Virus record (IMG/VR): IMGVR_UViG_3300005663_003086
Location: 1 to 35,946 of that record
From: a virus
DNA: 35,946 nucleotides
Reading direction: 5' to 3' (one strand)
Shown: piece after piece, positions 3,594 to 34,247 of the stretch
Numbering within the stretch: position 1 is the first letter of the stretch
Layout: each line of letters opens with the position of its first letter
Notes under the pieces: generated by a model
What the model was told of the DNA's origin: nothing
Seen by the model: only the letters and a program-made list of their open reading frames with translations
The model's database searches: none
Program-made: the position numbers and the translations under genes

Positions 3594-3594
3594 A

Positions 3595-5900: not shown

Positions 5901-8900
5901 GCTGCGCGCTCCTCCATTTCCCTGGTCAACCGATCCACGCTCTCGGAGATCTCCCGAGCGGCCCCTGCAAACGCCTGACGCTGCTCTGAAGACACATCGC
6001 GGTTCTGGTCAACCAGTTCAGCCAGTAGCGCTGTCTGTGCCTCCACGGCCTTCACGAATCGCTGCACGTCCGCTGAGCTGCCAGCACCTGTGACCCGGTC
6101 AACGATCGCATCACGCAGCTTGCTCGCACGCGGGCGGTCAAAGATGATTTCCTCTTTATGGATCGCAGCAAACTGATCACTGTCGACCCGGTCGGTACCG
6201 ACCGCAAATGAGGCATAACCGTACTTGGCCGCCAGCGCGAGGATCTCCGCCTGGCTGTAGCCGCTGGCCTGAGCCAGTTGTCCGGATCCAACACCGTTGG
6301 CGATCGCCGCATTGTAAATCGCACCTACCGCCTCGGCTTCGGTCGCGGCCGACCCATTCAGAGCCGCTACGGTTGCTGCGATCTCTGCATTACTCAGACT
6401 TGTGTTAACCACGCTTTGGTAGTCAGACACGCTGCCCAGACCGTTCTGGCCCAGGTATTGGTTAGCGGCGTTGGTGGCCACCGGGTTCTTCGCAATCTGA
6501 TCGGCAATCAGTTGGACCGCTGTGCCTTGAGCCAGCATTGCCTGGATCATCGCGCCCATCGCATCAGCCAGCGACTGAATGTTATCGCCCAGCATGTTCG
6601 GGTGTTCAGACAGCGCGGTCACCGCTTCAATCGCGGCCGCAATACCACCATCACTCAGGTCGCTGAGTTTTGGCATCAGGCCCAGCGCGTTGACGATGTC
6701 CTGGGAGAGCAGGCCGAAGTTCGCGCCCTGCTGCAGGATGGCCAGCATGCCGTCGCCGATCAGGCCCTGCAGTTCAAGCGCGATCTCGGCCGGCAGGTTG
6801 GCAAACAGCACTTTCAGATTCACCAGTTCACCGACGATCTGCTCGCCCATCAACTGCTCAATCCGGATCATCTCAGCCTGCAGCTCGCGAAGCTCAGCCA
6901 CATAGGTGGCCGCAAACTCGCCGGCCGCAAATTCACCTGGTGATTGCGCCTGGCCCAGCAGCGCGCTGATCTCCTGCAGCTTGGCCAAGTTGGCATTGAA
7001 TGCGGCCACACCACTTTCAGAGCTGGCCAGGGCAGTCTGATTCAACCGGGCAAAGGCGTCGAAGTAGCCTGTGGCTTCCTGAGCAGCGCCGAGATCTCCG
7101 GAGATGGCACGCTGATACACATCATCAAACTGCTGCTGCGCCAGTGTCAGACGGTCTGCCACCGACAGGGGGGACAGGTCACCGGTCATCAGCTGATTGA
7201 TGTAATCATCAATGCGCTTGGCGGTATCGAGCTGCTGCTGGTAGTGGTTCATCTTCTCTTCGTGCAACTGCTGCTCAAGTTTCAGCTGCTCGTTGTAGTT
7301 GGCCAGGATCTCCTGGCGCAGCGCATCCACGCTTTCCAGCTGCTCATCCAGGGGACCGGTGCGAAGGCGCGATCGCAAATCCACTGCGCCGTTGCCGGTG
7401 AGTTTGAATATGTCATTGTGGATATCGCCGGCAACACGCGCGGCCTGGGTGCGCAGGAACCGGTACTCATCCACCAGATCACTGGCCGCTTCGATCTGCT
7501 CGGCCATGGCCTGGGCTCGCACGTCGGCCAGCTCTTTCTCCTGCTCTATCAGCAGCGCCAGTGCGTTGCCGGCCTGTACCAACTCCAGCACGTTGACCGC
7601 ATCCAGGCTCTGCTTGACTGAGTCAAAATATTCGCGGAATTGAGCGACGCTGGTGAAGTCATCCAGGCTCAGGTTCAGCGCGTCAAACTGCTCTGTGACG
7701 GCGCTACGCAAACGCGTAGTGACGTTGGTCAGCACATCAGACTGATCGGCGATCGACTGGCTGAATGCGCCTGTGGTGGCGGCAAGGTTCTCGATGCCAC
7801 CAGCGGCCTCGGCCAGCTGCTGGGCAAACTCGAAAGTGACATCACCCAGGATATCCAACTGACCCGACTGCACCAGTGAGTCCAGCGCCAGCACTTCCTG
7901 GAACTGCGCGAGGATCTCGTCAGCAGATCCGGTGGCCGCTCGCAGCGCCTGGGTCACGCCATCGCTCAGACCCTCAATGTGGTTGATCAGCTGCTTGCTG
8001 AAGCTGCCAAACAGCGCGTCCAGGGCTTCCTCAGAATCGGCATCCTCACCAGCGCGCATGCCAAAGAAACTGCCCTGGCTGTAGCCGTAATCAGCCGAGG
8101 TGCCAGAGAGCGTCGCCCGGCTCATGTCAATCGAGCCACCGGCCGCACGCGTCAGCTGCGTGATGAACGCATCAATCTCAGCCGCCTTGGCTGTGATCGC
8201 ATCGGTCGCTTCCTGGTCACCGCGCCGGTTGATCTTGTTCACCTGCAGGCCGCTGGCAAAGGTCTCAGTGCCAGTGTAGTAGCTACCGCGTACCGAGTCG
8301 CGATTGGTGTCAAAACCCACGCTCATGCGCTTGTAACCATCACCGCCGAACATCGCATCCAGGGCGCCACCGGCCATTGCGCCCAGGAAGGTGCCCACAC
8401 CTGGGATCACCGAGCCGAGCACCGCACCGGCCATGGCGCCGTAGTTGCTCTGCGCTTGTTTACCAAACACAGCCTCACCAACGGCCGTGCCGATCGCGCT
8501 GCCCGCGATGCCGGCGAAGAGGTTTGCACTCAGGTTCTTCAGGCCAAAGTTGAATGACTTGGCGCCCTCGCTGATCAGCTGGCCACCTTCGTAAACCGCT
8601 GCTGAGTTCTGCACGAGTGAGGCGTTCAGCACGCTGGAGACGCCACCGCCGACCAGCGCTGCCAGCTGGCCATAGTTGACTGAACCACCACTGGCAGGAT
8701 CGCCTGGGGCTGCGCCTGGCGCGGCCGGGGTAAAGACACTACGCAGCGAGTTGGCCATGTCCATGCTGGCCACACTGGCCATCGTGCGGCGCATGATCGC
8801 CACAATCGACTCACCCAGGGTCTCCAGGTTGAACTTGCCTTTTTCAAGGATCTGGTCGAAGTAGTCGGTCCAGCTTCGCTGCAGATCCTCCAGCATGTTC

Positions 8901-11089: not shown

Positions 11090-11520
11090 TTTCCATCACG
11101 CTGATTAAGGGTGTGCACGGTGTGGTGGGCCAGAATCTTGAACCGCTGCCAGGTCTGCGGAGTCACTTCAATGCCGCTTCGATCGATGTCAACGTCCACG
11201 GCAGCAAAATTAAACCCGAACACATGTCCGTTTTCAGAGATCGTGAACTGGCCATACACGCTCAGGTAAAGCTGAATGGCATCCCAGTTCTCGGGCATCA
11301 CTTCGAAGGGTTCGGGCTCAACCTCCTGGTCCAGCAGCTGCTCCAGTTCATCCTCGCTGGCCCCCATCTCCCGCATTTCCTCCAGGTCGGCCTCGCTAAA
11401 GCGCGGGACCGGATCCTGGTGGTAATAATCAACGGCGGCCGCGAGCTCCTCGCTTACGAAAGTTGCCGCTTTTGAGTGTCTCCATGTACTCAACAGCGCA
11501 GGCCGACACGCAGCTGGCAT
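11086..11520 (-). CDS. Tail assembly chaperone, downstream frame (frameshift extension)
   Basis: An open frame of up to 144 codons overlapping the end of the preceding chaperone frame by 92 bases. Its first ATG (11520) has no ribosome site, and the sequence before about residue 28 just reads another frame of the upstream gene, so it is most likely made only as a C-terminal extension after ribosomal frameshifting. Moving from the upstream frame to this one needs a +1 (or -2) shift. The likely sites are a run of four A residues (minus-strand 11473-11470) or TTTC (11461-11458). From the A-run the fusion would be about 228 residues. The extension is acidic and helical and ends at the tape-measure start codon. 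Its presence just before the tape measure is the classic gpG/gpGT arrangement. Confidence 0.75.
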   Translation of the reverse strand: MPAACRPALLSTWRHSKAATFVSEELAAAVDYYHQDPVPRFSEADLEEMREMGASEDELEQLLDQEVEPEPFEVMPENWDAIQLYLSVYGQFTISENGHVFGFNFAAVDVDIDRSGIEVTPQTWQRFKILAHHTVHTLNQRDGK

Positions 11521-11773
11521 CGTTCAGCACCAGGTCAATAGCATCCTGGCCTCTGACTACTTCACCTTCTGAGCCCTCAACCGGGATATCACCGACGGCT
11601 TGAATGACGCGCTTACACAGCCCGGCATCATTTTCGTTTTCCACCAGGTCGGAGAATTCATCCTGGCTCAGCTGGACAAAGGTGACATCCAGATCGCCCA
11701 GGGATTCATCGCCCAGGAACACGGATACTTTTTTCTTGAAGGTGTTGGTTGATCGCTTTTTGAACGTGGCCAT
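11429..11773 (-). CDS. Tail assembly chaperone (short form)
   Basis: A 114-residue protein starting at the ATG at 11773, with GGAGAGA six bases upstream; six codons of upstream in-frame sequence are ignored. It is the short form of the tail assembly chaperone that coats the tape measure while the tube polymerises. N-terminal residues are basic (Lys/Arg-rich); the middle is acidic and hydrophobic, typical of gpG-like proteins. The C-terminus (GNFRKRGARGRR) is basic and read only when no frameshift occurs. It follows the tail tube gene after a 115-base gap containing a stable hairpin, and overlaps the downstream extension frame. Family assignment is by size, position between tail tube and tape measure, and the overlapping second frame. 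Confidence 0.78.
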   Translation of the reverse strand: MATFKKRSTNTFKKKVSVFLGDESLGDLDVTFVQLSQDEFSDLVENENDAGLCKRVIQAVGDIPVEGSEGEVVRGQDAIDLVLNDASCVSACAVEYMETLKSGNFRKRGARGRR

Positions 11774-11825
11774 GATGGCTCTCTCCTGCATTAAGTTTAT
11801 GGTTGGTCTTTCATCTTCGGCTCGG

Positions 11826-11860
11826 CCCGGCCAGCGGTACTGCTTAATCCACTGGCCGGG
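11826..11860 (-). terminator. Hairpin after the tail tube gene (possible attenuator)
   Basis: Nine-base perfect arms (CCCGGCCAG at 11826-11834 and CTGGCCGGG at 11852-11860) flank a 17-base loop in the gap after the tail tube stop codon. The stem is very GC-rich and would be stable in RNA of either strand. No T-run follows on the minus strand, so it is not a full intrinsic terminator. It more likely lowers read-through or protects the 3' end of the highly expressed tube message. Confidence 0.5.
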
Positions 11861-11888
11861 GCTGGCTCTCTTCTCACGGGGTTGTGCA

Positions 11889-12836
11889 TTAGCTGACGAT
11901 AATGAGTTCTTCGTCGTTACCGGCCGTGTCAGCGCCGGCCAGCATGTTCAGGTTGGCTTTGATGCCCACTTTGCCGCCCAGCACTGTCGTGTAGTCAGGC
12001 TGGATCAGCTGAGTGTTGGGGTTCTCAAAGCGCACGTGGTTGCCGTCACCGGCGTCGGTACCGGCATGCTCCAGAATCAGCGCACCCTGGGTACCATTCT
12101 TGGCAGTGGTGAACCAATCTTTGGTGCCGATCGCCGGCGCCAGGAAGGTGATGTCACCACCAGGCTCGCGGTCATTTACATCGATGCCTTCGTAGCCTGG
12201 GACGTCGATATACTCAACCGCGTTGTTGTTGCCATACATGTGGCTGATTAAAGCCAGTGAGACGCCATGCAGCGAGGCAGTGGTGTATTCATTGCCGACC
12301 GGCACCGGACGCTGGTAGCCGGTGAAATCAGGATTGATGACTGTCTTGGCCACCGGTGCATTCCACAGACCCTTGAGCTTGTACTGGAAGTACGGACGCT
12401 TTTTGGCGTCGAAGTGCCGGGTGACGTCACCGCGTACACCGGTCATCGGGTGACGGGTACCGCCCACGTTGATAAACAGCGTCGCGCTGTCACCGTCTGC
12501 GCTGATCAGGCTGTAACGCACATCGACCAGCTCATCGATAGTCACTGCATAGCCACAGATTTTGTGGAAGAAACCCCACTCGGGCTCGGTACCGGCCGTG
12601 CCAGCACCGCAGATGGACATCTTGAATTCCAATGACACATTGGTGCCCACGTGGAATATCTCAGAGCTGCCCCATGCGTTCTGTGCTGTCTCATCGCGCT
12701 CGGTCTCACCGTCCAGCGCTTTGAGCACGACATCGAACGTCTTGAACACATCGGCTGCCAAGGTCGGCGCTGCTAACACGCCATAGGTCTCTTCCTTTTT
12801 GCCGTAGATTGTCATTTCCGCTGAACGTTGAAACAT
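11889..12836 (-). CDS. Major tail (tube) protein
   Basis: A 315-residue structural protein, beta-rich and Gly/Thr/Asp-rich, without membrane segment or enzyme motif. The start ATG at 12836 has AGAGGGT eight bases upstream. N-terminal residues 1-30 resemble siphoviral tube subunits that begin by describing a 'YG...YG.....A' type strand pair; the centre (about 110-160) has strands with 'LFINVGGTRHPMTGVRGDV'-like text and the C-terminus has 'GGKVGIKANLN', suggesting the tube-forming beta-barrel. It stands between the tail terminator group and the chaperone pair, the conserved location of the tube gene. The strong hairpin just downstream fits a highly expressed message. No sheath gene lies next to it, which argues for a non-contractile tail. 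Confidence 0.78.
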   Translation of the reverse strand: MFQRSAEMTIYGKKEETYGVLAAPTLAADVFKTFDVVLKALDGETERDETAQNAWGSSEIFHVGTNVSLEFKMSICGAGTAGTEPEWGFFHKICGYAVTIDELVDVRYSLISADGDSATLFINVGGTRHPMTGVRGDVTRHFDAKKRPYFQYKLKGLWNAPVAKTVINPDFTGYQRPVPVGNEYTTASLHGVSLALISHMYGNNNAVEYIDVPGYEGIDVNDREPGGDITFLAPAIGTKDWFTTAKNGTQGALILEHAGTDAGDGNHVRFENPNTQLIQPDYTTVLGGKVGIKANLNMLAGADTAGNDEELIIVS

Positions 12837-12842
12837 GATTGC

Positions 12843-13247
12843 TTACCCTCTTTGGTTGAAGAGCTGCCACGCCTGATCGCGATCAGCTTCAGTGATTTGG
12901 AATCCCAGGACGGCTTCAATAGCTGCCACCTTGGGTCCTTTGTTCTTGGTCATAATCTCGTCGTCTGCCAGATCCAGAGACGCGATCGCATCGACGATGT
13001 CACCGGCCCGTGCGCGCTCAGCCAGTTCAGCAGCCGAAACTGGTGCATCGACCGAATCGTTCAGTGCTTGGTTCTCAGCTTGCTTCGGTGCGAACGGCTC
13101 CGGGTTGTATGTCGCACTGCCTACTGCGTGCGCCAGGCCATCCTGGCTGACGTAGTGCACCCCGGCAGTCACCGGGCGCTCCATGCCCTTGCCTTTAAGC
13201 TCCAGGCTGTGCACGCGCACCTTGTTCTGTTTGGTCGGTTTGCTCAT
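12843..13247 (-). CDS. Uncharacterised tail-operon protein
   Basis: A 134-residue protein between the tail terminator and the tube gene. The second ATG of an ATGACCATG pair is chosen as start because GAGGA lies seven bases upstream of it. The N-terminal 50 residues are basic and beta-like ('VHYVSQDGLAHAVG'); the middle (about 55-75) is Pro/Ala/Glu-rich and flexible; the C-terminal 65 residues are helical and acidic and resemble a short helix-extension-helix fold ('EIMTKNKGPKVAAIEAVLGF'). No function is recognised. The position suggests a minor tail protein or a tube assembly factor. It ends seven bases before the tube start, so it is part of the same transcript. Confidence 0.6.
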   Translation of the reverse strand: MSKPTKQNKVRVHSLELKGKGMERPVTAGVHYVSQDGLAHAVGSATYNPEPFAPKQAENQALNDSVDAPVSAAELAERARAGDIVDAIASLDLADDEIMTKNKGPKVAAIEAVLGFQITEADRDQAWQLFNQRG

Positions 13248-13271
13248 GGTCATGTCCTCACGTAAAAATCG

Positions 13272-13736
13272 TTATGCTGATTCAGAGTGCTCGCTGATCA
13301 GCCTCAGCTTGGCGTAGTGCACCAGGAACCCTGCAAACATCGCTGGTTGACTGGTCAACAGTCGCAGGCCGGCCTGTTCATCGGTGACGATCGTGTCAAC
13401 GGTCCCGCCCAGGGTCTGATCCGCATCAAACGCCGCATCCATGGCGTCGAGCAGGGCATCAAATCCAACCTCGCTGTCTTCGTCTTCCTGGAAGGCGCGG
13501 AAGTAGTGCAGCTCCCAGGTGGAAAACACCACAAACGTGTGGCCAGCATCGGGCGACTCTTTGCGCCGGCCAACCCGGCGAACAAACCCACCGGCAATCA
13601 TGGCGCCAGTGACATAAAATTCTTTCAACTTGCTCGTTGTCTTGCTGTACTTCTCGCGGTCGTGAAACAGGCCGGCCCCGGCAACGCTGTTGACGACAGA
13701 GGCGATCGCGGTGCGAATCTGGGCGCTGTTACTCAC
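13272..13736 (-). CDS. Tail terminator / tail completion protein
   Basis: A 154-residue protein starting with GTG at 13736 and overlapping the end of the preceding HK97 gp10-like gene by eight bases. The order of features fits tail terminators: an N-terminal helix ('IRTAIASVVNSVAG'), a basic central stretch, strands with 'HTFVVFSTWELHYFRAF', then an acidic 'LLDAMDAAFDADQTLGGTV' segment seen in gpU/terminator-like proteins that cap the growing tail tube. No catalytic residues are seen. Its place directly between the gp10-like joining protein and the tube region supports the call. The alternative is another head-tail connector component. Confidence 0.6.
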   Translation of the reverse strand: MSNSAQIRTAIASVVNSVAGAGLFHDREKYSKTTSKLKEFYVTGAMIAGGFVRRVGRRKESPDAGHTFVVFSTWELHYFRAFQEDEDSEVGFDALLDAMDAAFDADQTLGGTVDTIVTDEQAGLRLLTSQPAMFAGFLVHYAKLRLISEHSESA

Positions 13737-14238
13737 CTTGTGTCATCTCCTGGATGATCTGCGGGATCGCGGCCCTGAGCATCTCTTCCACCTGCGCCTC
13801 GTTTGCCGCCAGGGCATCACGAAACATGAACTTGCCCTCGGTGCCATCGCGGGCGATGGTGCGGCTGATGGCAAAGGCGACACTGCGCGCTTCCTGCCCC
13901 TCCAGCCCCAGCTTGTATTCAACCCATTCCTGGAGCGGGCGGATCGGAACAAAGTGCGGTTTGGTACCCATCTCGATTGGTACCGTGTGCGCCGCGCTGC
14001 CGACCACCAAGCCGATCACCTCACCACTGATACCGGAGGCAACCGGTGGTACCGCAGCTATCCCACCGCGCAGACCCGATGAGCCGCCCCGGCCCTCCGG
14101 TGCCCGCTCGATCGTTTCGCGCTCCAGGAGCATCACTGCCTCGGTCATCTGACGGGTCAGGTGCCGCTGCGTAATCTCCGGTTCGCTCGCCCACAGCTGT
14201 GCAAGCTGTGGCAGATTGGTTTCGAGTAAGATCCTCAT
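13729..14238 (-). CDS. HK97 gp10-like head-tail joining protein
   Basis: A 169-residue protein of the HK97 gp10-like tail completion group. Residues about 25-50 form a long amphipathic helix ('MTEAVMLLERETIERAPEGRGG'), followed by 'GLVVGSAAHTVPIEMGTKPHF', the typical pattern of this family (small-residue strand, then 'VE/IE.GT'). The C-terminal half is helical with 'FRDALAANEAQVEEMLRAAI'. It joins the filled head to the tail. Its ATG overlaps the stop codon of the upstream gene (ATGA), and it precedes the tail terminator, as usual for siphoviruses. Confidence 0.72.
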   Translation of the reverse strand: MRILLETNLPQLAQLWASEPEITQRHLTRQMTEAVMLLERETIERAPEGRGGSSGLRGGIAAVPPVASGISGEVIGLVVGSAAHTVPIEMGTKPHFVPIRPLQEWVEYKLGLEGQEARSVAFAISRTIARDGTEGKFMFRDALAANEAQVEEMLRAAIPQIIQEMTQGE

Positions 14239-14885
14239 CGGTTTCGCATCCCAGTTCGACTGGGTGATGGGATCCTTGCAACTGCGCTGGCAGCATTAGT
14301 GCTGGTTGGCTTGCCAAACTTGCTCTCGTAGCGAGCACGATAATCACGAGCACGAGCAGCAAAAGTGCGACCTTTATCGTTGTGCTGTACCGAGTCGGCC
14401 TGAACACTGACGTCCGAATCGTGGCCATACAGCGCCGCCACCTGGTCACAAAGGATTGCTGCGCCCAGGCAAGCCAGCGCCTCACAATCATCTTCATCGA
14501 AAGTGAGTGGGGCGGTATGGCTTGCTGTGTAGCAAACACGCACAAGCTCACCGACACCAACAACACCAGCAAGCAGACGAAGCTCAACATCAGAGTCAGG
14601 AAGGTCGTAGACATAAAAATAATCCTCAGTTACATAGCTTGGCGGGTTGCGACCGATCGGCGCTTCAATGGTAAGAATCGAGCTGCGCTTGTTGGTCCAC
14701 TGGTCAGGCGTTTGCAGAACCATCGCCTCGCCAACTTCCACATCCTGTGTCAGCTGGCGGGGGCGGTCCGCGTTGTAGCGATTGATGACCAGCGCCAGTG
14801 CCGTCGAGACATCTCCGGGAGAGAGTCGGCTGTCGTCGTCGCGCACCAGGCTGGTCATCAAACTCTTAAAGGCTTCCGTTTCCAT
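14235..14885 (-). CDS. Head completion / connector protein
   Basis: A 216-residue protein just downstream of the capsid gene. The N-terminal half is acidic with 'METEAFKSLMTSLVRDDDSRLSPGDVSTAL' type helix text. The centre is beta-rich ('YFYVYDLPDSDVELRLLAGVVGVGELVRVCY'). Residues about 128-190 are helical and Ala-rich, with a Cys pair around 'EALACLGAAILCDQ' and 'ARARDYRARYESKFG', like adaptor proteins that bind under the portal. No enzyme motif. The spacing (15 bases after the capsid stop, four-base overlap with the next gene) places it in the neck module. The exact equivalence to known connectors (gp6- or gp15-like) is not resolved. Confidence 0.6.
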   Translation of the reverse strand: METEAFKSLMTSLVRDDDSRLSPGDVSTALALVINRYNADRPRQLTQDVEVGEAMVLQTPDQWTNKRSSILTIEAPIGRNPPSYVTEDYFYVYDLPDSDVELRLLAGVVGVGELVRVCYTASHTAPLTFDEDDCEALACLGAAILCDQVAALYGHDSDVSVQADSVQHNDKGRTFAARARDYRARYESKFGKPTSTNAASAVARIPSPSRTGMRNR

Positions 14886-14899
14886 CAGGTAGCTCGCGT

Positions 14900-17143
14900 T
14901 TAGGCGTCAGCAACTACATGCTTGCGCATGTTCTTGTGGCTGCTGGCTTTGCCGCCATAGATGTGGCGGATCTTGTAAGTCACCATGTCGTTGGTGAACA
15001 TCGAGCCGGCCGTCGGCGTGTCCTGGATGAACATCTCGGGCTCCTGACGGCCATCCATGAAACCCACTTCAATGGTTGGATGCTCGGCAGGATCACCGAT
15101 CAAGGCCCAGTCGCTGACGTCGGTCCAGTACGGTACCGGGCGAATCATCGGCATGGATGATTGGGCAAAGTCCGGGTCCAGGTTGGTATCGCGGCGGAAG
15201 GCTTCAAACGCTGCCTCCTCCAGATCTGCCGGGATCAGCAGAATCTTGGGCGCCAGGCCCAGCGGCTCGTCGGTGTCGTGGTCAGCCTGTTTCATCATCG
15301 CCAGGCGTGCGACCAGGTAGGCCGCTTTGCTGAACGCAGCGGTGCCCAGGTTGCCGTGATCGGCGTGGAAAATCGCCTTGGTATCAGCCATCACCGGGTT
15401 GGTGCGGATGATGTCCAGGACAAACTTGTTCAGCGTGCGCTTGGCTGCAGTTGTCACAGATTGCGGGATCCGCATGACAAAACCGACATCGTCGTTCTTG
15501 ATCATCTCCAGGGAGACTGCAACGATACCGCCGCGCTTGACCGGGCTGTATTTCTCAGCCTTCTCAGTGGGCTGATCCAGGCCAACGTAAGCTGCCTTCT
15601 CGGCAACCACAGGCAGATCACCAAAGCCGCCGAACATGACGTTGTTGCGCTCACGGAAATCATTGAGCGGTACGATGTCGCTGACAATCTGACGCCACAG
15701 CTCGTGCTGCAGGTTCTGGTTGTACATGGTCAGCACGCGCCGGTTAACCGCATCACCGAGCATGATCGGGAATGATGTGGTATCCAGGGCCTCACGGAAA
15801 CGGCAGTTGCGCAGCTGCCCGGTGACGCGGGTGTCACCGGTGGCCGCCAGATAACATTCCTTTAGGCTGATCACTTCGTTGTCGTCGCGATCCAGCAGCT
15901 TGTCGAGCATCTCTTCCATGCCCTTAACTCCCACGGTGCCATCACCGCCACCCAGGCCGCGTACGGTGCCTGACTCAGTGAAGCTGGCCAGGTACTCGCG
16001 CTCTGCACTGATCGCTTCTTTGAACTTTTCGGTTGTCAGGGCGGGATCGGTTTCCAGCTGCTTGATCAGCTTGTCCTGCGCCTTCTCGGGCAGGTTGGAG
16101 GTGCGGACCGCTTCGCGCATGGCGGTGCGGGTTTCCAGAACCTTCAGTTCCGCGCGGGTGATCGGTGCCTCGTCGCCAGTCTTCGCAGGCGCCTGTACCG
16201 GCTCAGGCTTGGTGGCTTCTTTGAAGGCCGTGAACACGGCATCTTCATCATTTTCGTCCAGGCCTTGTGGCAAAGAGCCGTTGTTGGCCTTGCGGATCGC
16301 TTCGAGCATGCGCTGCTTCATGGCATCGTCCTCATCGTTGGTATTTGAGGCAACCGCCTCGATCAGATTAATAAGCTCTCCGCCAGCGCCGGCTTCGACG
16401 ATCAGGTCAACGGAGTGGATTTTGGTAAATCGGGTAGCTTCCATGATGCGGCCCACGCGCTTGGCGGTACCCTCGACATCAATGGAAAAGCCAAACAGGT
16501 GATTCATGTTGCGCTCTACTGCCTCGCGCAATTTGCCAGCAACCACCGCTTCGGAATCGAAGACATCCAGCACTGCCTGGATCTCGCCTTCGTCGGGCGT
16601 AGCGCCTTCAACAAACTTGGCATCGCGCAGCCCGCCGATCAGGTTGCGCACATCCTTGCCTTTGCCGCCCAGGTGCTCGTCGTCTGATTTGATGAACACA
16701 CGGGTGCCATTAAAAAGCGGCGCCGCTTCACGCAGCACAGCCACTGGATAGCCTTTGTTGTTGGCAGAGGTGCCGGCGCGGATCACGCGGATCAGGAACG
16801 ATCTGGATTTTTCCACATCGCCCACGGCTTCAATCAGCGCCACTGATTCGCGCATGGATGCGCCAACGGGGGTGAACTCGCGCACCACTTCAGAGGGGTC
16901 GCCAATGGTGACAGTGTTGTCCTGGGCGATCGTGTAGGGATACGCGTAGAAGCGGCCGGCCAGACGTGCGACGGCGCGATCGGGATAGATGGCTTCCAGG
17001 TCAATCCAGCATTCGGACTTGCCCAGCTGCACTTTGACTTTCTCATGCAATGCGCTGCGCACCAGTTCGATGGTGTCACGCATCTCGCTGGCCGCTTCGC
17101 GCATCGCTACCGCGCCGACTATACCTTCTGCAGGGATAAACAT
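14900..17143 (-). CDS. Prohead protease-scaffold-major capsid fusion protein
   Basis: A 747-residue fusion in one open frame. Residues about 115-260 resemble a prohead maturation protease: a His in 'DDEHLGG' (about 157), 'GLRDAKFVEG', a likely nucleophile Ser in 'LFGFSID' (about 220), and 'KIHSVDLIVEAGAGG' (241-255), the usual pattern of the S78/T4 gp21-type serine proteases. Residues about 270-400 are charged and helical, as in scaffolds, with an Ala/Pro-rich hinge near 315. Residues about 400-747 look like an HK97-fold major capsid protein ('MLGDAVNRRVLTMYNQN', 'VMFGGFGDLPVV', 'KILLIPADLEEAAFEAF'). The start ATG overlaps the previous stop (TAATG). The protease must presumably free itself during maturation, since it is otherwise present in every subunit. 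Related protease-capsid fusions are known; identification of catalytic residues here is by eye. Confidence 0.85.
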   Translation of the reverse strand: MFIPAEGIVGAVAMREAASEMRDTIELVRSALHEKVKVQLGKSECWIDLEAIYPDRAVARLAGRFYAYPYTIAQDNTVTIGDPSEVVREFTPVGASMRESVALIEAVGDVEKSRSFLIRVIRAGTSANNKGYPVAVLREAAPLFNGTRVFIKSDDEHLGGKGKDVRNLIGGLRDAKFVEGATPDEGEIQAVLDVFDSEAVVAGKLREAVERNMNHLFGFSIDVEGTAKRVGRIMEATRFTKIHSVDLIVEAGAGGELINLIEAVASNTNDEDDAMKQRMLEAIRKANNGSLPQGLDENDEDAVFTAFKEATKPEPVQAPAKTGDEAPITRAELKVLETRTAMREAVRTSNLPEKAQDKLIKQLETDPALTTEKFKEAISAEREYLASFTESGTVRGLGGGDGTVGVKGMEEMLDKLLDRDDNEVISLKECYLAATGDTRVTGQLRNCRFREALDTTSFPIMLGDAVNRRVLTMYNQNLQHELWRQIVSDIVPLNDFRERNNVMFGGFGDLPVVAEKAAYVGLDQPTEKAEKYSPVKRGGIVAVSLEMIKNDDVGFVMRIPQSVTTAAKRTLNKFVLDIIRTNPVMADTKAIFHADHGNLGTAAFSKAAYLVARLAMMKQADHDTDEPLGLAPKILLIPADLEEAAFEAFRRDTNLDPDFAQSSMPMIRPVPYWTDVSDWALIGDPAEHPTIEVGFMDGRQEPEMFIQDTPTAGSMFTNDMVTYKIRHIYGGKASSHKNMRKHVVADA

Positions 17144-17622
17144 TACTGTGCAGCCTTCGCTTTGGCAGCGGCTTTCTCAGCTGCCTTGGCGGCAGCGGCA
17201 GCGGCTTGCGCTTTGCGCTCATCGGGGGTGGAGTTGTACTTGCGGCCGGAGGTGGTGACGACAATGAAGCGGCCGTTGCCCAACGCGTTGAAGTCCAGGA
17301 CCTCTGCTACCTCGACACCTGCGAACTTCGCAGCGGCAGCAACTGTGGCGGCGGGCTTGTCATCGGAACCAGGTGACGCAGGCTTGTTGCCGGCATTGTT
17401 GTTGCCAGCAGGTTTGGCGGTAGTCGCATTGGCCTTGGTCGCCTTATTGGGTTTGCCAGCTTTAGCAGACTTCGCGGCCTTGGCAGTGGTGGCAGCAGCT
17501 GAGTTTTCAGAAGCGCCGGTCGTGTCGGCAGGCGGGGTTTGCGTGCTGGACGTCGATGTACCGGCAGATGAAGCATCTGCTTTTTGGGTAGGATCGCCGT
17601 TCTTTTCTTCGTCGTTGGGCAT
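17143..17622 (-). CDS. Ala/Thr/Lys-rich protein before the capsid fusion
   Basis: A 159-residue protein that opens the head-tail operon. The ATG at 17622 is chosen because GGAGAG lies eight bases upstream; the seven upstream codons lack support. Residues 1-95 are low-complexity, rich in Ala, Thr, Pro, Lys and Ser, with repeated short A/K/T motifs. A small ordered block follows at about 100-140 ('FAGVEVAEVLDFNALGNGRFIVVTTSGRKYNS'), then an Ala/Lys helix to the end. It resembles flexible head proteins such as decoration or scaffolding accessories; nothing shows an enzyme. It overlaps the capsid start by one base (TAATG), so the two are probably translated together. Confidence 0.6.
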   Translation of the reverse strand: MPNDEEKNGDPTQKADASSAGTSTSSTQTPPADTTGASENSAAATTAKAAKSAKAGKPNKATKANATTAKPAGNNNAGNKPASPGSDDKPAATVAAAAKFAGVEVAEVLDFNALGNGRFIVVTTSGRKYNSTPDERKAQAAAAAAKAAEKAAAKAKAAQ

Positions 17623-17663: not shown

Positions 17664-17712
17664 AGCGTACTTGAGGGGGGTGGAGTAAGACTTTTAACCT
17701 AAGTTAGTAAAT
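17664..17712 (-). promoter_or_regulatory. Putative Mor-dependent late promoter of the head-tail operon
   Basis: Leftward promoter in the 89-base gap before the Ala-rich gene. It contains a 22-bp motif (17691-17712) that is identical to the one before the endolysin gene. On the minus strand its core is the dyad TAACTTAGGTTA (arms TAAC/GTTA), centred at 17700.5. A -10-like TACGCT begins at 17669, so the dyad centre falls at about -43.5, the position where Mu Mor binds. A C-rich spacer and no -35 consensus lie between them. This fits activation by the Mor-like protein encoded at 33897-34247. Inferred from sequence; not tested. Confidence 0.7.
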
Positions 17713-18551
17713 TATGTTACTGCGCGTTTGCCCGGTGCGGACATCTGCCAGCTCTTCATATAGGGCAGCGACATACAGCCGCAGTTGATGACTTCACCGA
17801 TCGGCGCCTTGGGATCATGCGGGTGCATCATCTCAATGCCACCGATGATAAACGGCTTGTCCAGATCTTGCACCTGTCCATCAGCATAAGTGTGAGTTTC
17901 GCGCGGATCTTTGCGTGCGCTGCGGCGCCATTGCTTTTGCATACCAGGCAACACTGTTGCAGCAGAGCGTTTGCGCAAATCACTGGCAATCGAGTTGGCT
18001 CGGCTGATCTCGGTGCGCAGAATGCCCAGGGCGCGAGAGCGATCACCTTCATCCAGGATATTGGTAATCACCGTGATCGCCATGTCGGCCGGCTGCACGC
18101 CCATCATCACCATACCCAGCTGTGTGTCGATCTTGTCAGCCATGATGCGGGTGACGCCGTCGATCTTGCGTGTGGTCACATGCTGCAGCGCGGCCAGCTG
18201 ACGTGTATCAATGGCCGGCGCCACCCCGGCGATGGTCAGGCCAGCAGCCTGCAGCGGCCGGTCAGTGAGCAGCTCACCCAGCGACCAGGCATTGCTTAAC
18301 GCTGATTGCGCGGCCGCAGCTGACTGACTGGAGACCTGGTTCAGGATGACCTTGATCTGCGACTCCAGCTCACCGAGCAGCCACAGGTTGTAATCGGTCG
18401 GCGAGATGCGCAGCAGGAACTTGATCTGCTCACGTGCTTCGTTGAGGATCCGGTTGATCATCAGCAGCGTGGCAGCGCTGAGTTCTTCAAACTCAGTGAC
18501 GACTGCCTTACGCTCCTGGTTGAATGCCTTGCGGCGTTCGCGATCGTTCAT
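17712..18551 (-). CDS. Mu F-like head morphogenesis protein
   Basis: A 279-residue protein of the Mu F / SPP1 gp7-like minor head group. The first 200 residues are mostly helical (long Glu/Gln/Arg/Ala-rich helices). The C-terminal domain (about 200-265) carries the family's His/Asp/Cys pattern: 'RKDPRETHTYADGQVQDLDKPFIIGG', then 'HPHDPKAP.GEVINCGCMSLPY'. Such proteins are carried in the head and act in capsid assembly or DNA delivery. The ATG overlaps the portal stop by four bases, and the gene ends next to the second late-promoter motif, so it is the last gene of the lysis-packaging operon. Confidence 0.85.
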   Translation of the reverse strand: MNDRERRKAFNQERKAVVTEFEELSAATLLMINRILNEAREQIKFLLRISPTDYNLWLLGELESQIKVILNQVSSQSAAAAQSALSNAWSLGELLTDRPLQAAGLTIAGVAPAIDTRQLAALQHVTTRKIDGVTRIMADKIDTQLGMVMMGVQPADMAITVITNILDEGDRSRALGILRTEISRANSIASDLRKRSAATVLPGMQKQWRRSARKDPRETHTYADGQVQDLDKPFIIGGIEMMHPHDPKAPIGEVINCGCMSLPYMKSWQMSAPGKRAVT

Positions 18552-19954
18552 CCACCAACACCCACATCCAGATCAACATCGGCGTCATCGGTTTTCTGCG
18601 TGGCGATCATCGCCTCGACTTCCTTGAGCAGCTGCCCCGGCTCTTTGTCCACACCCAAGCGCCTGGCCGTAGCCACGATGATCTCGATCGCCACCTCACG
18701 GGTCATCAGCCTGGCGTTCATCGCCGCGACACACGCGCCCACCACCTGCTGCATGGCAGAGGCGTATTTCGTGGTATCTCGCTGCACCATCTCGGGCAGC
18801 TCACAGGTCACCCAGAACGCGCGATCGGACGGGTCAATCGTTCTGTTATTGAACTGGGCCCACATGGAGATCACAAAGGTGCCGATCACCTCCAGCATGT
18901 ACTTGAGCCGGCGCTGACGCGCGGCCAGTATCTTGAAAGTCGGCTCATCCATCTCACCGGCCGTGCTGCGGTTCACATCACCACCACCACCGAACCAGTG
19001 CTCCGGGATTGTTGCACCACCCAGAACATGGTTGCGAAACAGCCGCGCCGACTGGCTCGTGTCGGCTGCGTTCATCTCCGGCACCAGTGCAGTCCATTCC
19101 TCTGACTCGTTGTGTACCCGAACGCCACCAGATTGCGGCACCTGGATGTTCTTTGCCTTGGCCTTGATATCCTCCTCGTTGGCGCCCTTGATCAATACGT
19201 CCCACATGAAGGCACGCAAGCCCTGGTTGCGATCCAGCTCCCCAAACAGGAACTGATCATAGGCATCCAGCCAATCCATTTGCGGCAGCAGATCGGATCG
19301 GCCACGGGCGCCCGATGCCAGCCCCCGGATGCGGAAGTAAAAACACTCACCATCGGTGAACGTCTTGCGCTTGCGCCTGGCGCGCGCACCGAACACAGAC
19401 TCATCGGCGTTGATGATCACTTTGAAGCGTCGGTAATTGCCCTTGCCATCCTTCTTGGTTTTGATGCCGATCGGCTGACGCTTGTTGTCCGGGTCGGTGA
19501 TCACATCGTCAATCTCAGCCGGATCCAGATAACCCAGGCGCACATGACCGTTCATCTGGTTCACAAACACCGGATAACACTGCTCACCGAACAGCGCGAG
19601 CTCGCGGGCGAACTCCTCCAGGGACAGATCCATGTTGTTGATGGGGTCATACCAGAATTTCTCGATGATTGCCTGGGCTTCATCATCGGGCACCTTCAGC
19701 CGGACGCCATCACTGAGCATGAACGCCAGGGGCAGCTCAATAATGCGATCGGCGATCAGGTTGGACTCCCACAGAAACTTTGCCAGCTTCTGCATCCGGT
19801 CCTGTTTCATCGGCTCCAGGTCGCGATCGTTATTACCGGTCAGCGGGCGCCATTGTTCCTCATCCGGATCAATGCTGCTGCCGGCCGCTTCAATGAACTT
19901 TTCAGTGCCTGACTCAGCGGCCTGAGCGGTTTTTGTATCTGTCTTGGTAGCCAT
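18548..19954 (-). CDS. Portal protein
   Basis: A 468-residue portal protein, the dodecameric ring at one vertex through which DNA enters. It follows the large terminase and precedes the Mu F-like gene, the conserved order. Seen: an N-terminal charged stretch (1-60), a strand-rich region with 'LAFMLSDGVRLKVPDDEAQAIIEKFWYDP' (about 75-105), a basic 'FGARARRKRKTF' stretch near 195, and the clip/stem region about 240-350 with 'DQFLFGELDRNQGLRAFMWDV' and 'LGGATIPEHWFGGGGDVNRSTAGEMD', a glycine-rich motif typical of portals. The C-terminal helices end acidic. The second ATG of ATGACCATG (19954) is preferred; AGAGA lies nine bases upstream. It is not the DUF935 type found in Mu by simple inspection. 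Confidence 0.85.
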   Translation of the reverse strand: MATKTDTKTAQAAESGTEKFIEAAGSSIDPDEEQWRPLTGNNDRDLEPMKQDRMQKLAKFLWESNLIADRIIELPLAFMLSDGVRLKVPDDEAQAIIEKFWYDPINNMDLSLEEFARELALFGEQCYPVFVNQMNGHVRLGYLDPAEIDDVITDPDNKRQPIGIKTKKDGKGNYRRFKVIINADESVFGARARRKRKTFTDGECFYFRIRGLASGARGRSDLLPQMDWLDAYDQFLFGELDRNQGLRAFMWDVLIKGANEEDIKAKAKNIQVPQSGGVRVHNESEEWTALVPEMNAADTSQSARLFRNHVLGGATIPEHWFGGGGDVNRSTAGEMDEPTFKILAARQRRLKYMLEVIGTFVISMWAQFNNRTIDPSDRAFWVTCELPEMVQRDTTKYASAMQQVVGACVAAMNARLMTREVAIEIIVATARRLGVDKEPGQLLKEVEAMIATQKTDDADVDLDVGVGG

Positions 19955-20076
19955 GGTCATAATCTCTGGTCAGTTGCGTTCATGAATCGATCCGCGAGCG
20001 TTGCGCGATTTCTCTGGCGTCATAGCGCCGGCACCGGGGAAAACGCCGTAGGCGAGCTCTCAGGGCCTCGGGCAAA

Positions 20077-21660
20077 TCAGCGGAACATTGTGGTACGGCG
20101 GCGGTTTTCCATCCGCGATGGCAGCAGTCGATCAAGTGATGCTTCGATGTTCGCGCCAGCTGCTGGTTCTGTTTCTTCTAGGGCTGCTGCCCAGGCGAGC
20201 AAACCACCGATAGCAGAGTCACCGTGTCGGTACATGCCATCGCTGCCGCGATCGCGGCCATCACTCATGCGCGGACTGCCCTGGTGCAGCACAACCCGGC
20301 GATGGTCAGCAATAACATCCTCGCTCTTGGGTACCAGAATGGTTTTGTCCTCGTAAGCCGATCTGTATTTGGGGAAATACTCGCTGTACCACTTCGGGGT
20401 GGCCATCACGCAATCGATGCGCTGCTCGCCGTACTCCTGCAGTGCTGCTTCAGCATGTGACTGGCCGTTGCCCCTGGCATCAAACTTAGCGTGGTGAAAC
20501 AGCGGCAGGCGGTCGATGATGAAAAACATGATGAGGCGCTGCACATCAAATGGGATTTTGCGCAGCTCCAGCATGAACGCCGTACGCCAGCGCCTCACTC
20601 CATTGGACTGCATGATCCAGAGAACCGACAGGTCACCGTCGCGGCCAAAGTCCTGTCCGTACACCGAACGCTGATGCGTGGGCATGTTGTCGATCACCGG
20701 CTGCAGGACATCACGGCACCACTGCTCAGCCTGTTCAATACGTCTGTCGTCTGTAACCCATTCAGCGGGTTTGGTGAAACGCAGCACCGGGATAGTCTGA
20801 TCCTGGCACTGCTCGATCAACGTCCGCGTGAAATAGGCACCGCTGCCGGCCGAGGGTATACAACCGAGTTCTTCATCAGCGGCCGTGCCATACAGCGCAT
20901 AGATCTTGTCCCGGAACTCGCGCTCTTTCTCCTGGGTCCAAAGCTCACCCTTGACCAGGCAGATGCGCTGGTAGAATCCCTGAGCCAGCGCCTCATCAAA
21001 GGTGACCCTGTGCACCGAGTATTTCAGCTTGCCGGCTTCGATCTCGCGCAGGATCTGATTGAAGGGATTGCCATCACCAAAATGTGTGCTGCAGATATCA
21101 ACCCGGCCACCCCAGATCAGGAACGCCATGGCCGCATCGATCAGCGCCTGCAGGTCATCATGGAAAGCCGCTTCATCCAGGCGGGCATGGCCTTGGTGAC
21201 CACGAAGGTTTGACGGCTTGCTGGACAGGGCAACAATCTCATGACCAGATGCCATGCGGATCCGGTAGCGCAGGATGTCTTTGTCTTCGTCATCAATGAC
21301 AGACTTGTCCAGGGAAACGGAAATCTCTGATGCGACCACCTGGTAAGCTTTGGCAAAACTGGCGCAGTCACCGATGAACTCAGCCGCCATCTCTTTGTTG
21401 TAGCCGACGTAGTATTGGTTCATGCCATTACGGTGCGCAGCCTCAAGGGTCGCCTCTGCAGCCAGACAGCCCCAAGTGCCACCAATACGACGGGACTTGA
21501 CCAGTACCCGCACCGGGCTCATGTCCTGGTGCCAGCGTATCTGATACGGCAATAGAACATCAGGCACTTCGCTGGCGTTAAACTGGCCAACGCGCTCGCG
21601 CTGAATGTCATCGACCTGGTCCAGCAGCTCGCGCTGCTGCGCGGCGCTCAGATTAGCCAT
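20077..21660 (-). CDS. Terminase large subunit (Mu gp28-like)
   Basis: A 527-residue packaging motor. The N-terminal ATPase shows a Walker-A-like 'VKSRRIGGTWG' (about 54-64) and a Walker-B-like 'HARLDEAAF' (158-166, DE at 162-163). The C-terminal nuclease domain contains 'YGQDFGRDGD' (D338) and 'HHAKFDARGNG' (D395), the acidic residues expected to bind metal, with a further Asp near 'RHGDSAIGG'. It docks on the portal and cuts and drives phage DNA into the head. For Mu-type phages this includes cutting host DNA flanking the inserted genome. It overlaps the small terminase gene by eight bases and is followed by a 122-base gap before the portal. Confidence 0.92.
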   Translation of the reverse strand: MANLSAAQQRELLDQVDDIQRERVGQFNASEVPDVLLPYQIRWHQDMSPVRVLVKSRRIGGTWGCLAAEATLEAAHRNGMNQYYVGYNKEMAAEFIGDCASFAKAYQVVASEISVSLDKSVIDDEDKDILRYRIRMASGHEIVALSSKPSNLRGHQGHARLDEAAFHDDLQALIDAAMAFLIWGGRVDICSTHFGDGNPFNQILREIEAGKLKYSVHRVTFDEALAQGFYQRICLVKGELWTQEKEREFRDKIYALYGTAADEELGCIPSAGSGAYFTRTLIEQCQDQTIPVLRFTKPAEWVTDDRRIEQAEQWCRDVLQPVIDNMPTHQRSVYGQDFGRDGDLSVLWIMQSNGVRRWRTAFMLELRKIPFDVQRLIMFFIIDRLPLFHHAKFDARGNGQSHAEAALQEYGEQRIDCVMATPKWYSEYFPKYRSAYEDKTILVPKSEDVIADHRRVVLHQGSPRMSDGRDRGSDGMYRHGDSAIGGLLAWAAALEETEPAAGANIEASLDRLLPSRMENRRRTTMFR

Positions 21661-22216
21661 CGATTTTTATCCCGAGGAATTTGGCGCGCACGCGCTCAAA
21701 CTGCATATCCGACAACCCGGCCTCAGCCTGGATCTCGCTGATCGCCTCGGCGGTTTTGCGCGCGAGCTCCTCACGCACTTTCTTGGCCCATTGCTTTTGT
21801 GGCAGGGACGCCCGGCTGATGTTGCCCAGGGCGCGGAACAGCATGGTGATTTCCTTCACGTTGATCTTCTGGTCCGGATCATCCGCATCGTACTGGTTCA
21901 TCAGCTGGAAAATCAGATCCTGGGCGAGCGCGACGTTGGCCATGCCCAGGGCATCGCCTTCATCGTCCATGGTCTCATTCAGCAGCTTTGCAGCTGCTGT
22001 ACTGGAGCGGATTTTCTCAATCCGGTCTTTCAGGGTTTTGCCGTAGATGCCCAGGCCCGACCGGCTGACCGTCAGCTCCAGCTCATGGGCTGCCAGCTTG
22101 CCATTGAGCTGCTCGGTCAACTCGTCATAGTTGCCAAAGGCGTTGGCCACAAGCTTGGAGTCAAGCCAGGCTTTCACCTCTGATGGCAGCTGCTGTATTT
22201 TGCTGACGGCCGGCAT
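21653..22216 (-). CDS. Terminase small subunit (DUF3486, Mu gp27-like)
   Basis: A 187-residue protein of the DUF3486 family, the small terminase of Mu-like phages that recognises DNA for packaging. The N-terminus has the family start 'SKIQQLPSEVKAWLDSKL' and a helix-turn-helix-like 'YDELTEQLNGKLAAHELELTVSRSGLGIYGKTL' (about 30-65). The rest is helical with an acidic centre ('DADDPDQKINVKEITMLF') and a basic C-terminus. The ATG follows a TGATG junction with the upstream gene. It precedes the large subunit, as in Mu. Confidence 0.87.
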   Translation of the reverse strand: MPAVSKIQQLPSEVKAWLDSKLVANAFGNYDELTEQLNGKLAAHELELTVSRSGLGIYGKTLKDRIEKIRSSTAAAKLLNETMDDEGDALGMANVALAQDLIFQLMNQYDADDPDQKINVKEITMLFRALGNISRASLPQKQWAKKVREELARKTAEAISEIQAEAGLSDMQFERVRAKFLGIKIDG

Positions 22217-22527
22217 CAGAAATCTTCCGGATGAGCAACACCCAGATGGCGATCGCCAAGGCCGTCCAGGAAGTCAACGCCATCGGCGCTGATCTTCGCC
22301 ATCCAGCGATCGTCATTGCGAAGCGTGATGATCACCAGGCCACGCTCTGACAGGTAGTCCAGGGAGTTGCGGATGTTAAACTTGGTAAAGCTCAGATCCA
22401 CATCGCCGCGCAGCACCTGCGCAATCAGGCCATCACCGATTGGCTCTGGCCTGTTCTGGGACAGCGCCTGCAGGATGCGTAATCGACGCAGCCGGTGCCT
22501 TTGAGTTTCCATATCATTGAGTCCCAT
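22216..22527 (-). CDS. Winged-helix-like small phage protein
   Basis: A 103-residue protein with a likely winged-helix fold: basic helix 'RHRLRRLRILQALSQN' (9-25), helices with 'IGDGLIAQVLRGDVDLSFTKFNIRNSLDYLSERGLVII' (30-66), then a short wing ('TLRNDDRWMAKIS'). Similar small proteins stand just before the small terminase in several Mu-like phages. A role in DNA recognition for packaging is plausible but not shown. The start has AGAGGAA five bases upstream, and it overlaps the preceding membrane protein gene by 14 bases. Confidence 0.65.
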   Translation of the reverse strand: MGLNDMETQRHRLRRLRILQALSQNRPEPIGDGLIAQVLRGDVDLSFTKFNIRNSLDYLSERGLVIITLRNDDRWMAKISADGVDFLDGLGDRHLGVAHPEDF

Positions 22528-22954
22528 TTGTTGTTCCTCTGCTGCTGACCGCTTTGATCAGATCTTGGATTTCCCGGTTGAAGTCTTTGCGTAGCTCATC
22601 CACCTTGCGCTCAAGGTTGAGCGCATGCTCCAACCAATCATCTCGTTTGATGTACTCGCCAGCCACCTGCTCGCGGAACTCCTGCAGGCGTTTGTCGACA
22701 TCGGAGATGCGCGCCTCCATCCGCTCTCGCGCTGTGGAAAACTCGCCTTTGTTCTCGCGCACCTGGCCAGCCAGCTGGCTCACCAGGTTCTGCAGGTTGT
22801 CATTCACCGTGCCCCAATACTCTTTTTGGCTTTTCGCCTCTTGCGCTTTCCTGCTCTCTTCGCGCATGAAAATCCATTTCAGAGCGCCGCCCATCCCAGC
22901 GATCATAAACAGGATGATCGGCACCGTAATTTTCAGGATGTCTACCAGCTCCAT
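22514..22954 (-). CDS. Single-span membrane coiled-coil protein (possible spanin)
   Basis: A 146-residue protein with one N-terminal membrane segment (residues about 7-28, 'ILKITVPIILFMIAGMGGALKW') followed by a long charged coiled coil (about 30-140, many Glu, Lys, Arg and Gln in heptads). This is the build of an inner-membrane spanin (Rz) or of the DUF2730-like proteins of Mu phages. It follows the holin gene with a TAATG junction, which fits a lysis role. No lipoprotein-type Rz1 reading frame nested in or next to it was found, so a normal two-part spanin is not evident. Confidence 0.6.
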   Translation of the reverse strand: MELVDILKITVPIILFMIAGMGGALKWIFMREESRKAQEAKSQKEYWGTVNDNLQNLVSQLAGQVRENKGEFSTARERMEARISDVDKRLQEFREQVAGEYIKRDDWLEHALNLERKVDELRKDFNREIQDLIKAVSSRGTTNGTQ

Positions 22955-23364
22955 TACTTAGTTTCCTTTGTGAAGAGGCCTTTAACGTGTGGTGCAATTT
23001 TCTCGCCGCTTCGCCCGACCACGTAACCGCCGATGCCGATCTTCAGTAGGTCCCATGCCTCGTCAGAAAGCCGGAACGCCAGGAAGCCAAAGGAGTCGCA
23101 TACCACCAGGACCAGGAAGGTGAGCATGGCGATCGGGCGCCAGGATCTTTGCAGCCAGCTTTCACCCTGGGCCTCGGCCATGATCACTTTGGCCTGTGAC
23201 TCCAGGATCTTCGCCTCGTACTCCAGCACCTGGCCTGTAACGGTGTTCTGCAGATTCAGCATCTGCGCTCGAAGCTCCAGACGCTCACCATCGCTGGTGT
23301 GCATTTTGTCGATCAGCGAGGTGACCGGCGTGATGGCATCTGCCAGGAATGAGAGGATCTTCAT
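22954..23364 (-). CDS. Holin, 3-TM GTA-type
   Basis: A 136-residue protein of the three-transmembrane holin type (GTA_holin family pattern). Residues 1-20 contain a weakly hydrophobic first segment; a helical charged part (25-68) follows; then 'QRSWRPIAMLTFLVLVVCDSFGFLAF' (about 72-97) and 'LKIGIGGYVVGRSGEKIAP' (107-125), the characteristic C-terminal pair with the 'RSWRP' signature. It forms the lesions that let the endolysin reach the wall. It overlaps the endolysin end by four bases (ATGA) and is followed by the membrane coiled-coil protein. Confidence 0.85.
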   Translation of the reverse strand: MKILSFLADAITPVTSLIDKMHTSDGERLELRAQMLNLQNTVTGQVLEYEAKILESQAKVIMAEAQGESWLQRSWRPIAMLTFLVLVVCDSFGFLAFRLSDEAWDLLKIGIGGYVVGRSGEKIAPHVKGLFTKETK

Positions 23365-23903
23365 GAGTAAGCCCTGTTTTTCCAGCCGTTGTGAAAGACG
23401 CCCTGGGTAGGATCGGCAGCGATGATCAGCCGGTAATGTCCATAGGCTTCTGAGCGCATGGCAGCCAGCGGGTTGAGCTGATCACGGATATCGTTGATGG
23501 CGGCGAAGGTTTTGGAGCCCAGCAGGCCATCTTCAAGCACCGGTTTATTGCAAGCACGCAGCGCCCGTTGGATGATCTTCACGGCAGGTTTAGAGCGCAT
23601 GTTGACCAACAGGTCAAAGGCTTTGATGGCCACCAGATCATGATTGATCTCGTCGAGCCGGTAGTAGTCCCAGAAGTGTTTGCGATACAAGCGGGCGACT
23701 TCACCAGGTGTCAGGGCGGTGATGTCTGCTTCGGTCACGTGGCCGTCGCCATCGATGTCGCCGTCCAGGTCGGGCAGACCTTTCAGAAAGCGCAGCGATA
23801 TCCCATAGTCAGTCACGCCACCCCGGTCAGCCTTATGGTCAACCAGACGGCCCTCTTTTTTCAGGGTCTGCTGCAGTGCTGCGAGAAACGCGTTGGCGCT
23901 CAT
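23361..23903 (-). CDS. Endolysin, GH108 family with EF-hand-like loop
   Basis: A 180-residue peptidoglycan hydrolase. The start is the ATG at 23903; a GTG four codons upstream has no room for a ribosome site. Residues 13-36 hold the GH108 pattern with catalytic Glu17 ('KKEGRLVDHKADRGGVTDYG'). Residues 103-180 match the C-terminal peptidoglycan-binding half of these enzymes. Between them lies a canonical EF-hand/dockerin calcium loop at 49-60 (Asp49, Asp51, Asp53, Asp60). No signal peptide, so the holin must release it. First gene of the lysis-packaging operon, directly behind the first late-promoter motif. Confidence 0.9.
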   Translation of the reverse strand: MSANAFLAALQQTLKKEGRLVDHKADRGGVTDYGISLRFLKGLPDLDGDIDGDGHVTEADITALTPGEVARLYRKHFWDYYRLDEINHDLVAIKAFDLLVNMRSKPAVKIIQRALRACNKPVLEDGLLGSKTFAAINDIRDQLNPLAAMRSEAYGHYRLIIAADPTQGVFHNGWKNRAYS

Positions 23904-23930
23904 GGGTAGAATCACTCCTATGTTGGAGTG

Positions 23931-23979
23931 ATCCTAATCGCGCGGGGCGGGAGGAGGCTTTTAACCTAAGTTAGTAAAT
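23931..23979 (-). promoter_or_regulatory. Putative Mor-dependent late promoter of the lysis-packaging operon
   Basis: Leftward promoter before the endolysin gene. The 22-bp motif (23958-23979) is an exact copy of the one at 17691-17712. Its dyad TAACTTAGGTTA is centred at 23967.5. A good -10, TAGGAT, begins at 23936, placing the centre at -43.5, the same spacing as in the other copy. A C-rich spacer replaces a -35 element, which is usual for promoters that need a bound activator. The Mor-like protein at 33897-34247 is the obvious candidate. Confidence 0.72.
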
Positions 23980-23995
23980 GGGGATAAAGCACAAA

Positions 23996-24932: not shown

Positions 24933-24939
24933 TTTAATA

Positions 24940-33896: not shown

Positions 33897-34247
33897 ATGT
33901 CAGTTCCTGAGATCCAACAGGATGACGACATACTGATCGACTTACATCAGATCGCCGCGAGGCTGATCTGCAGCGACGGCGTGCCGGCCGAGCGTGCAGA
34001 CGAGCTGGCCGGCCGCATCGCCCAGGAGATCCGATCGGCTTGGGGTGGGCAACAGATATACATCAAGAAAACCGACCTGGTGGAGCTGTCAGCCAGGAAT
34101 CTGGATATCTACAACGAGTTCAATGGTACCAACCACCACCAGCTGGCCAAAAAGCACGGCCTGGCTGTGCCTGTCATCTACCGCATCATCAAATCCGTGA
34201 AGCAGCAGGAGCGCGACAAGCGCCAGCACAAGCTTTTTCAGGAATGA
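33897..34247 (+). CDS. mor: Mor/C-type late transcription activator
   Basis: A 116-residue protein at the end of the early operon. The ATG at 33897 is preferred: GGAGAG lies seven bases upstream. Family pattern: an N-terminal dimer part ending in 'RSAWGGQQIYIKKTD' (about 47-60), then a helix-turn-helix 'FNGTNHHQLAKKHGLAVPVIYRIIK' (about 75-99). In Mu, Mor binds a dyad centred at -43.5 and starts middle transcription. Here two identical dyads at that spacing lie before both late operons, and no second Mor/C gene is seen, so this protein probably does the jobs of both Mor and C. Confidence 0.88.
   Translation: MSVPEIQQDDDILIDLHQIAARLICSDGVPAERADELAGRIAQEIRSAWGGQQIYIKKTDLVELSARNLDIYNEFNGTNHHQLAKKHGLAVPVIYRIIKSVKQQERDKRQHKLFQE

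Follow-up and report, generated by a model that had tools for sequence, protein, structure and literature searches.

Two putative operators before the late operons of a Mu-like prophage and a candidate Mor/C-family activator

The window, i.e. the whole stretch of 35,946 nucleotides that was analysed, is a Mu-like prophage. Its early operon runs rightward and its late genes run leftward; a MuA-type transposase and a MuB-type protein are encoded rightward at 27.5–30.6 kb. The late genes form two operons, A and B, and the same 22 bases are located just upstream of each (Table 1). Which function do these two copies have, and which protein reads them? An earlier note regarded them as late-promoter motifs with the exact geometry of Mu Mor, from which the Mor-like protein encoded at 33897–34247 drives both late operons. 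Judged by its nearest relative, the host would be a Pseudohongiella-type gammaproteobacterium, since this relative, a Pseudohongiella MAG (G005), has a 77% identical Mor.

The 159-aa protein of operon B has no family match among the phrog and Pfam-type profile matches. In the adjacent 747-aa protein the capsid domain is confined to the C-terminal part, and this protein is probably a protease/scaffold–capsid fusion. The fused capsid form marks a large phage group with 80 or more viral contigs.

Table 1. Predicted regulatory sites and genes of the window that are considered in this report.
Feature	Position	Strand	Basis and remarks
Operator of late promoter A (Plys-like; predicted)	23958..23979	minus	ATTTACTAACTTAGGTTAAAAG; the corresponding spots of G195 and G005 have the same bases
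−10 hexamer TAGGAT, promoter A	23931..23936	minus	31.5 bases from dyad centre
GH108 endolysin, first gene of operon A, ATG 23903	23361..23903	minus	phrog_315 endolysin 1.5e-30; PF05838 6.4e-18
Remaining operon A	17712..23364	minus	holin, lipoprotein-like (phrog_462), 103-aa gene, small and large terminase, portal, Mu F-like head protein
Operator of late promoter B (PI-like; predicted)	17691..17712	minus	ATTTACTAACTTAGGTTAAAAG, follows closely on the Mu F-like stop codon
−10 hexamer TACGCT, promoter B	17664..17669	minus	31.5 bases from dyad centre
159-aa Ala/Lys-rich protein, first gene of operon B, ATG 17622	17143..17622	minus	ORF and conserved start
747-aa capsid protein, operon B	14900..17143	minus	Phage_capsid_4 PF25209 1.8e-44
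Operon B tail genes	1..14885	minus	minor tail protein 11889-12836, tape measure 5897-11089
Mor/C-family activator	33897..34247	plus	phrog_532 late transcriptional activator 1.2e-29; PF08765 E 6.7e-27; end of rightward early operon

The repeated element and its promoter signals

The 22 bases are present at 17691–17712 and 23958–23979 exactly as the earlier note had described. On either strand, this pair is the only repeat of at least 22 bases in the window; a pair of this kind is estimated to arise by chance in 36 kb with a probability of ~7e-5. The proposed dyad is found in both copies, centred at 23967/23968 (site A) and 17700/17701 (site B), but it is imperfect, with arms TAAC and GTTA flanking TTAG. 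The 22-mer includes a 16-bp element, ACTAACTTAGGTTAAA, and immediately upstream of it the bases ATTT at an alpha-CTD/UP-like position. When the window is searched for TAAC-N4-GTTA with TAnnnT 30–31 bases from the centre, exact matches are obtained at sites A and B only, and the same search of shuffled windows yields zero exact matches. Candidates for a third operator in the window were rejected, as none combines the core with the hexamer.

Two further features adjoin the operators. The heptamer TTATCCC just upstream of operator A (23980–23986) is common to the window, G195 (IMGVR_UViG_3300009602_000043) and G005. A second, weaker dyad, TAAATTATGTTA, is located 13 bases upstream of operator B (17708–17719), where it shares bases with the stop codon of the preceding gene; G195 has retained this dyad. 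A second dimer site at this position is conceivable, since the Mu C complex 9l0x has four chains (G–J).

The distance of 31.5 bases between dyad centre and hexamer, given for both sites by the earlier note, is reproduced by measurement. In related phages, the hexamer position of promoter A holds TACCAT (30.5 bases from the centre in G195, 31.5 in G005 and G025), and that of promoter B holds TAGTCT (G195 and L043), TACTCT (G005) or TACGCT (G025, 30.5 bases). Altogether, TAnnnT is present at 10/10 sites from six phages, 30.5 (three sites) or 31.5 bases (seven sites) from the centre, and when the 88-base stretches that follow the ten centres are pooled, they contain one additional TAnnnT. By composition alone, the chance of the hexamer is 2–5% per site; a combined probability is omitted because the ten sites are not fully independent. 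The best match to a −35 box is 2/6 (3/6 in one of the ten sites). A −10 hexamer without a −35 box is the pattern of Mor-type promoters. Neither consensus sigma-70 promoters nor terminators were found at sites A and B. The stretch between operator and hexamer is C-rich (8–14 of 20 bases).

Conservation in close relatives and the operator change in G025

An exact-match scan of viral contigs detects the 22-mer in one other contig, G195, which shares 75–80% DNA identity with the window phage and carries two copies, both at the orthologous spots. In ungapped comparisons with G195, all 22 motif bases are identical at both sites, compared with 25/60 and 15/60 bases in the flanks of site A and 44/60 and 31/60 in those of site B. 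Operator B is additionally conserved in G005 (one mismatch, outside the core), in L041 (94% capsid), where the motif is kept as far as the contig end, and in L043 (80% capsid), where 20/22 bases are kept.

In the Mor protein of G005, the recognition helix LAKKHGLAVPVIYRIIK and the preceding strand GGQQIYIKK are identical to those of the window. The contig with this mor gene is too short to include the late genes. The rest of the G005 genome was searched as an out-of-sample prediction, and exactly two exact cores were found, on another contig and 6.7 kb apart; they precede the endolysin (66%) and the capsid operon (79.5%), as predicted. In the whole 3.63-Mb genome that contains the window prophage, the 12-base core TAACTTAGGTTA has, at zero mismatches, only the two sites A and B, and one PF08765 gene is present there. 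The motif occurs in 2 of 15 genomes of the genus, and the same two carry this mor. The earlier note had made its proposal dependent on finding the motif at the same intergenic spots in close relatives, and that is what G195 (22-mer twice) and G005 (core twice) contain. At the level of sequence, these relatives provide strong support for reading both copies as activator sites.

G025, a phage from the same host family, has identities of 83% for the endolysin, 87% for the large terminase, about 68.5% for the capsid and 52% for Mor. Both of its late spots carry TTTTTGACGCGCGTCAAAAG in place of the window motif, with the −10 hexamers still in place, and this dyad occurs in the G025 genome at the two late spots only. 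The recognition helix of its Mor is LAKQYGLTVSVIYRIVK. If one protein reads both operators, a joint change of the operators together with their reader is expected. G025 is the one clear case of such a joint change, and it points to a link between operator and protein.

The same comparisons bear on other regulators. The dyads could be operators of a prophage repressor, or of another phage regulator of the late promoters, rather than of the Mor-like protein; a leftward HTH_3 gene (24411–24971) is located close to site A, and repressor operators are typically short dyads. However, neither the early genes nor the repressor gene has a copy nearby, the hexamer distance without a −35 box is that of an activator replacing this box, and Mor helix and operator differ jointly between G005/G195 and G025, which makes this explanation improbable. 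Some phage late promoters are controlled by host factors, and a host transcription factor binding the motif would tie late expression to the host state. Such a factor is very unlikely, given that the host genome has no further copy of the core, that the motif is absent from the 13 other genomes of the genus, which are without this mor, and that G025 uses a different dyad in the same host family. A short duplicated sequence without regulatory role (a recent duplication, a terminator, or a packaging or gyrase signal) would match the position of both copies at operon borders and the terminator-shaped repeats at these two spots in related phages, but is hardly to be expected, because the two copies have unrelated flanks and stay identical in relatives with 20–25% divergence, no T run follows the A/T-rich dyad, and the search for a terminator-like site at this place was negative.

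The activator candidate and the comparison with Mu

The activator comprises 116 aa, counted from M9 of a 124-aa frame, and belongs to PF08765 with a score of 94 bits (cut-off 24.9). Its sequence matches in the PDB are Mu C and Mor only, and the earlier identification of the gene product as Mor-like is sound. The AlphaFold model, based on four sequences, is weak (pLDDT 65); with Mu C (9l0x) and Mor (1rr7) as top Foldseek matches at E ~1e-3, the predicted fold resembles Mor/C, and the model says no more than this. Pseudomonas Mu-like phages such as JBD25 likewise encode an activator of the Mor family (32% identical to the window protein over 76% of its length), but the window activator belongs to a different activator subgroup. 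In L029 (IMGVR_UViG_2901313434_000004) the Mor-family match is divided between two reading frames, suggesting that the gene is broken or that sequencing introduced an error.

In Mu Pm, positions −57 to −52 read GTAAAC and the primer covers −9 to +10 (PMC4390567). With this numbering on NC_000929, the Mor site AGTAAAGCCGGTTAAT is located at −51 to −36 (centre −43.5) and TATCCT at −13 to −8. The hexamer distance in Mu is accordingly 30.5 bases, compared with 31.5 in the window. The "exact" Mor geometry of the earlier note holds within one base, and its dyad centre at −43.5 requires the hexamer to be placed at −12. The element ACTAACTTAGGTTAAA and the footprinted Mor site of Pm are identical in 10/16 bases; for the L060 element, ACTAACACCGGTTAAA, the count is 12/16. 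Both the window and Mu have a 16-bp dyad with 5-bp arms and a 6-bp spacer (ACTAA-CTTAGG-TTAAA and AGTAA-AGCCGG-TTAAT, respectively); the arms of the window dyad are short and imperfect. As at Pm, the activator is of the same family, the 16-bp dyad element would replace the −35 box, the −10 hexamer follows ~31 bases downstream of the dyad centre, and A/T-rich DNA is located just upstream, which is the alpha-CTD place at Pm (PMC4390567). Unlike Pm, which drives the middle operon with gene C, the window sites are located directly before the late operons, and there are two operator copies instead of one.

The late promoters Plys and PI of Mu are activated by protein C (PMC4461284). One precedes the endolysin gene (Mu gp22), the other separates the Mu F region from the protease/capsid genes, and the window sites occupy the same two borders; the activator is paralogous and the −10 hexamer is weak (PMC4461284). 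Unlike the Mu late promoters, the two window operators are identical across 22 bases, and the late genes and the early operon have opposite orientations. Mu has four C-driven promoters (lys, I, P and mom) below the Mor-driven middle operon, whereas the window has two sites and its genome encodes only one Mor/C-family protein; no counterparts of PP or Pmom were found in the window. By analogy of position, the two predicted promoters correspond in function to the C-dependent Plys and PI, and not to Pm, the middle promoter.

The proposed late switch and its variation among related phages

Very probably, as judged from sequence, the two 22-mers are the operators of both late promoters, bound by a dimer of the single Mor/C-family protein, which would switch on operons A and B. 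The conservation of the motif in G195 and G005 and the Mor assignment support the view, put forward earlier, that this protein drives both late operons. The protein would be produced from the last part of the early operon and, as in Mu, bind the 16-bp element as a dimer. The element would substitute for a −35 box and the holoenzyme would be recruited, through alpha and sigma by analogy with Mu, to the weak TAnnnT hexamer. Recruitment may be aided by the upstream ATTT at the alpha-CTD place, which would explain the conservation beyond the dyad. In this way, the lysis/packaging/portal operon and the capsid/tail operon would be switched on together, with the late timing known from Mu. Because there is one activator of the family and its sites are located before the late operons, a one-step switch, with the Mor-like protein doing the job of Mu C, is likely in place of the two-step Mor-then-C cascade.

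Forty relatives, found by their fused capsid, were surveyed more widely. About 17–19 of the 40 have repeated dyads, of several sequence types, at both late spots, compared with one or two of 310 mismatched control pairs (outside same-class pairs). The repeat dyads in about half of the capsid relatives thus look real, beyond chance. The largest type, GGCCGACATATGTCGGCC-TTAGTTTTTT, is terminator-shaped and for this reason not counted as proof of activator sites. Phages of this type have diverged Mor-domain proteins, and the wider-family dyads are regarded as a lead. L058 was left out because automatic centring misplaced its dyad centre. Among more remote phages, L056, L065, L118, L100 and Mae-JY22 have strong Mor genes but yielded no matched dyad pair with TAnnnT at 30–32. 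A shared 12-mer in L065 was dropped as an operator candidate, as it is located away from the lysis border. A literature search, which covered few subscription journals, did not turn up any previous account of late operators for this group of phages.

Near-identical palindromes GGCCGACATATGTCGGCC-TTAGTTTTTT are present at both late-operon borders of eight relatives (L051, L057, L062, L063, L066, L068, L107 and L119), one at about −370 to −455 relative to the capsid start and the other 7–9 kb upstream of it. A conserved xACAGT is located 32–33 bases from their centre. These palindromes are possibly a combined terminator and operator. In the Pm region of Mu (L133, Mu 8700–9400), the Mor site overlaps the terminator-like hairpin AAAGCCGGTTAATCCGGCTTTTTTT, and an overlap of operator and terminator may therefore be common.

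A late switch of the Mu type is already known in kind, and the natural operator swap in a sister phage is a useful addition. The window provides a concrete predicted operator for a non-Mu activator of the Mor family, with base-for-base conservation in relatives. There is a reasonable, though far from certain, case that sister phages differ by a joint rewriting of both late operators of a single-tier Mor switch (TAACTTAGGTTA to TTGACGCGCGTCAA, accompanied by helix changes), which would result in naturally orthogonal activator–promoter pairs. If this is true, the fused-capsid relatives would add further dyad types at the same two spots. With few helix changes between them, the window and G025 form a pair in which the DNA-recognition code of the Mor/C family is directly testable.
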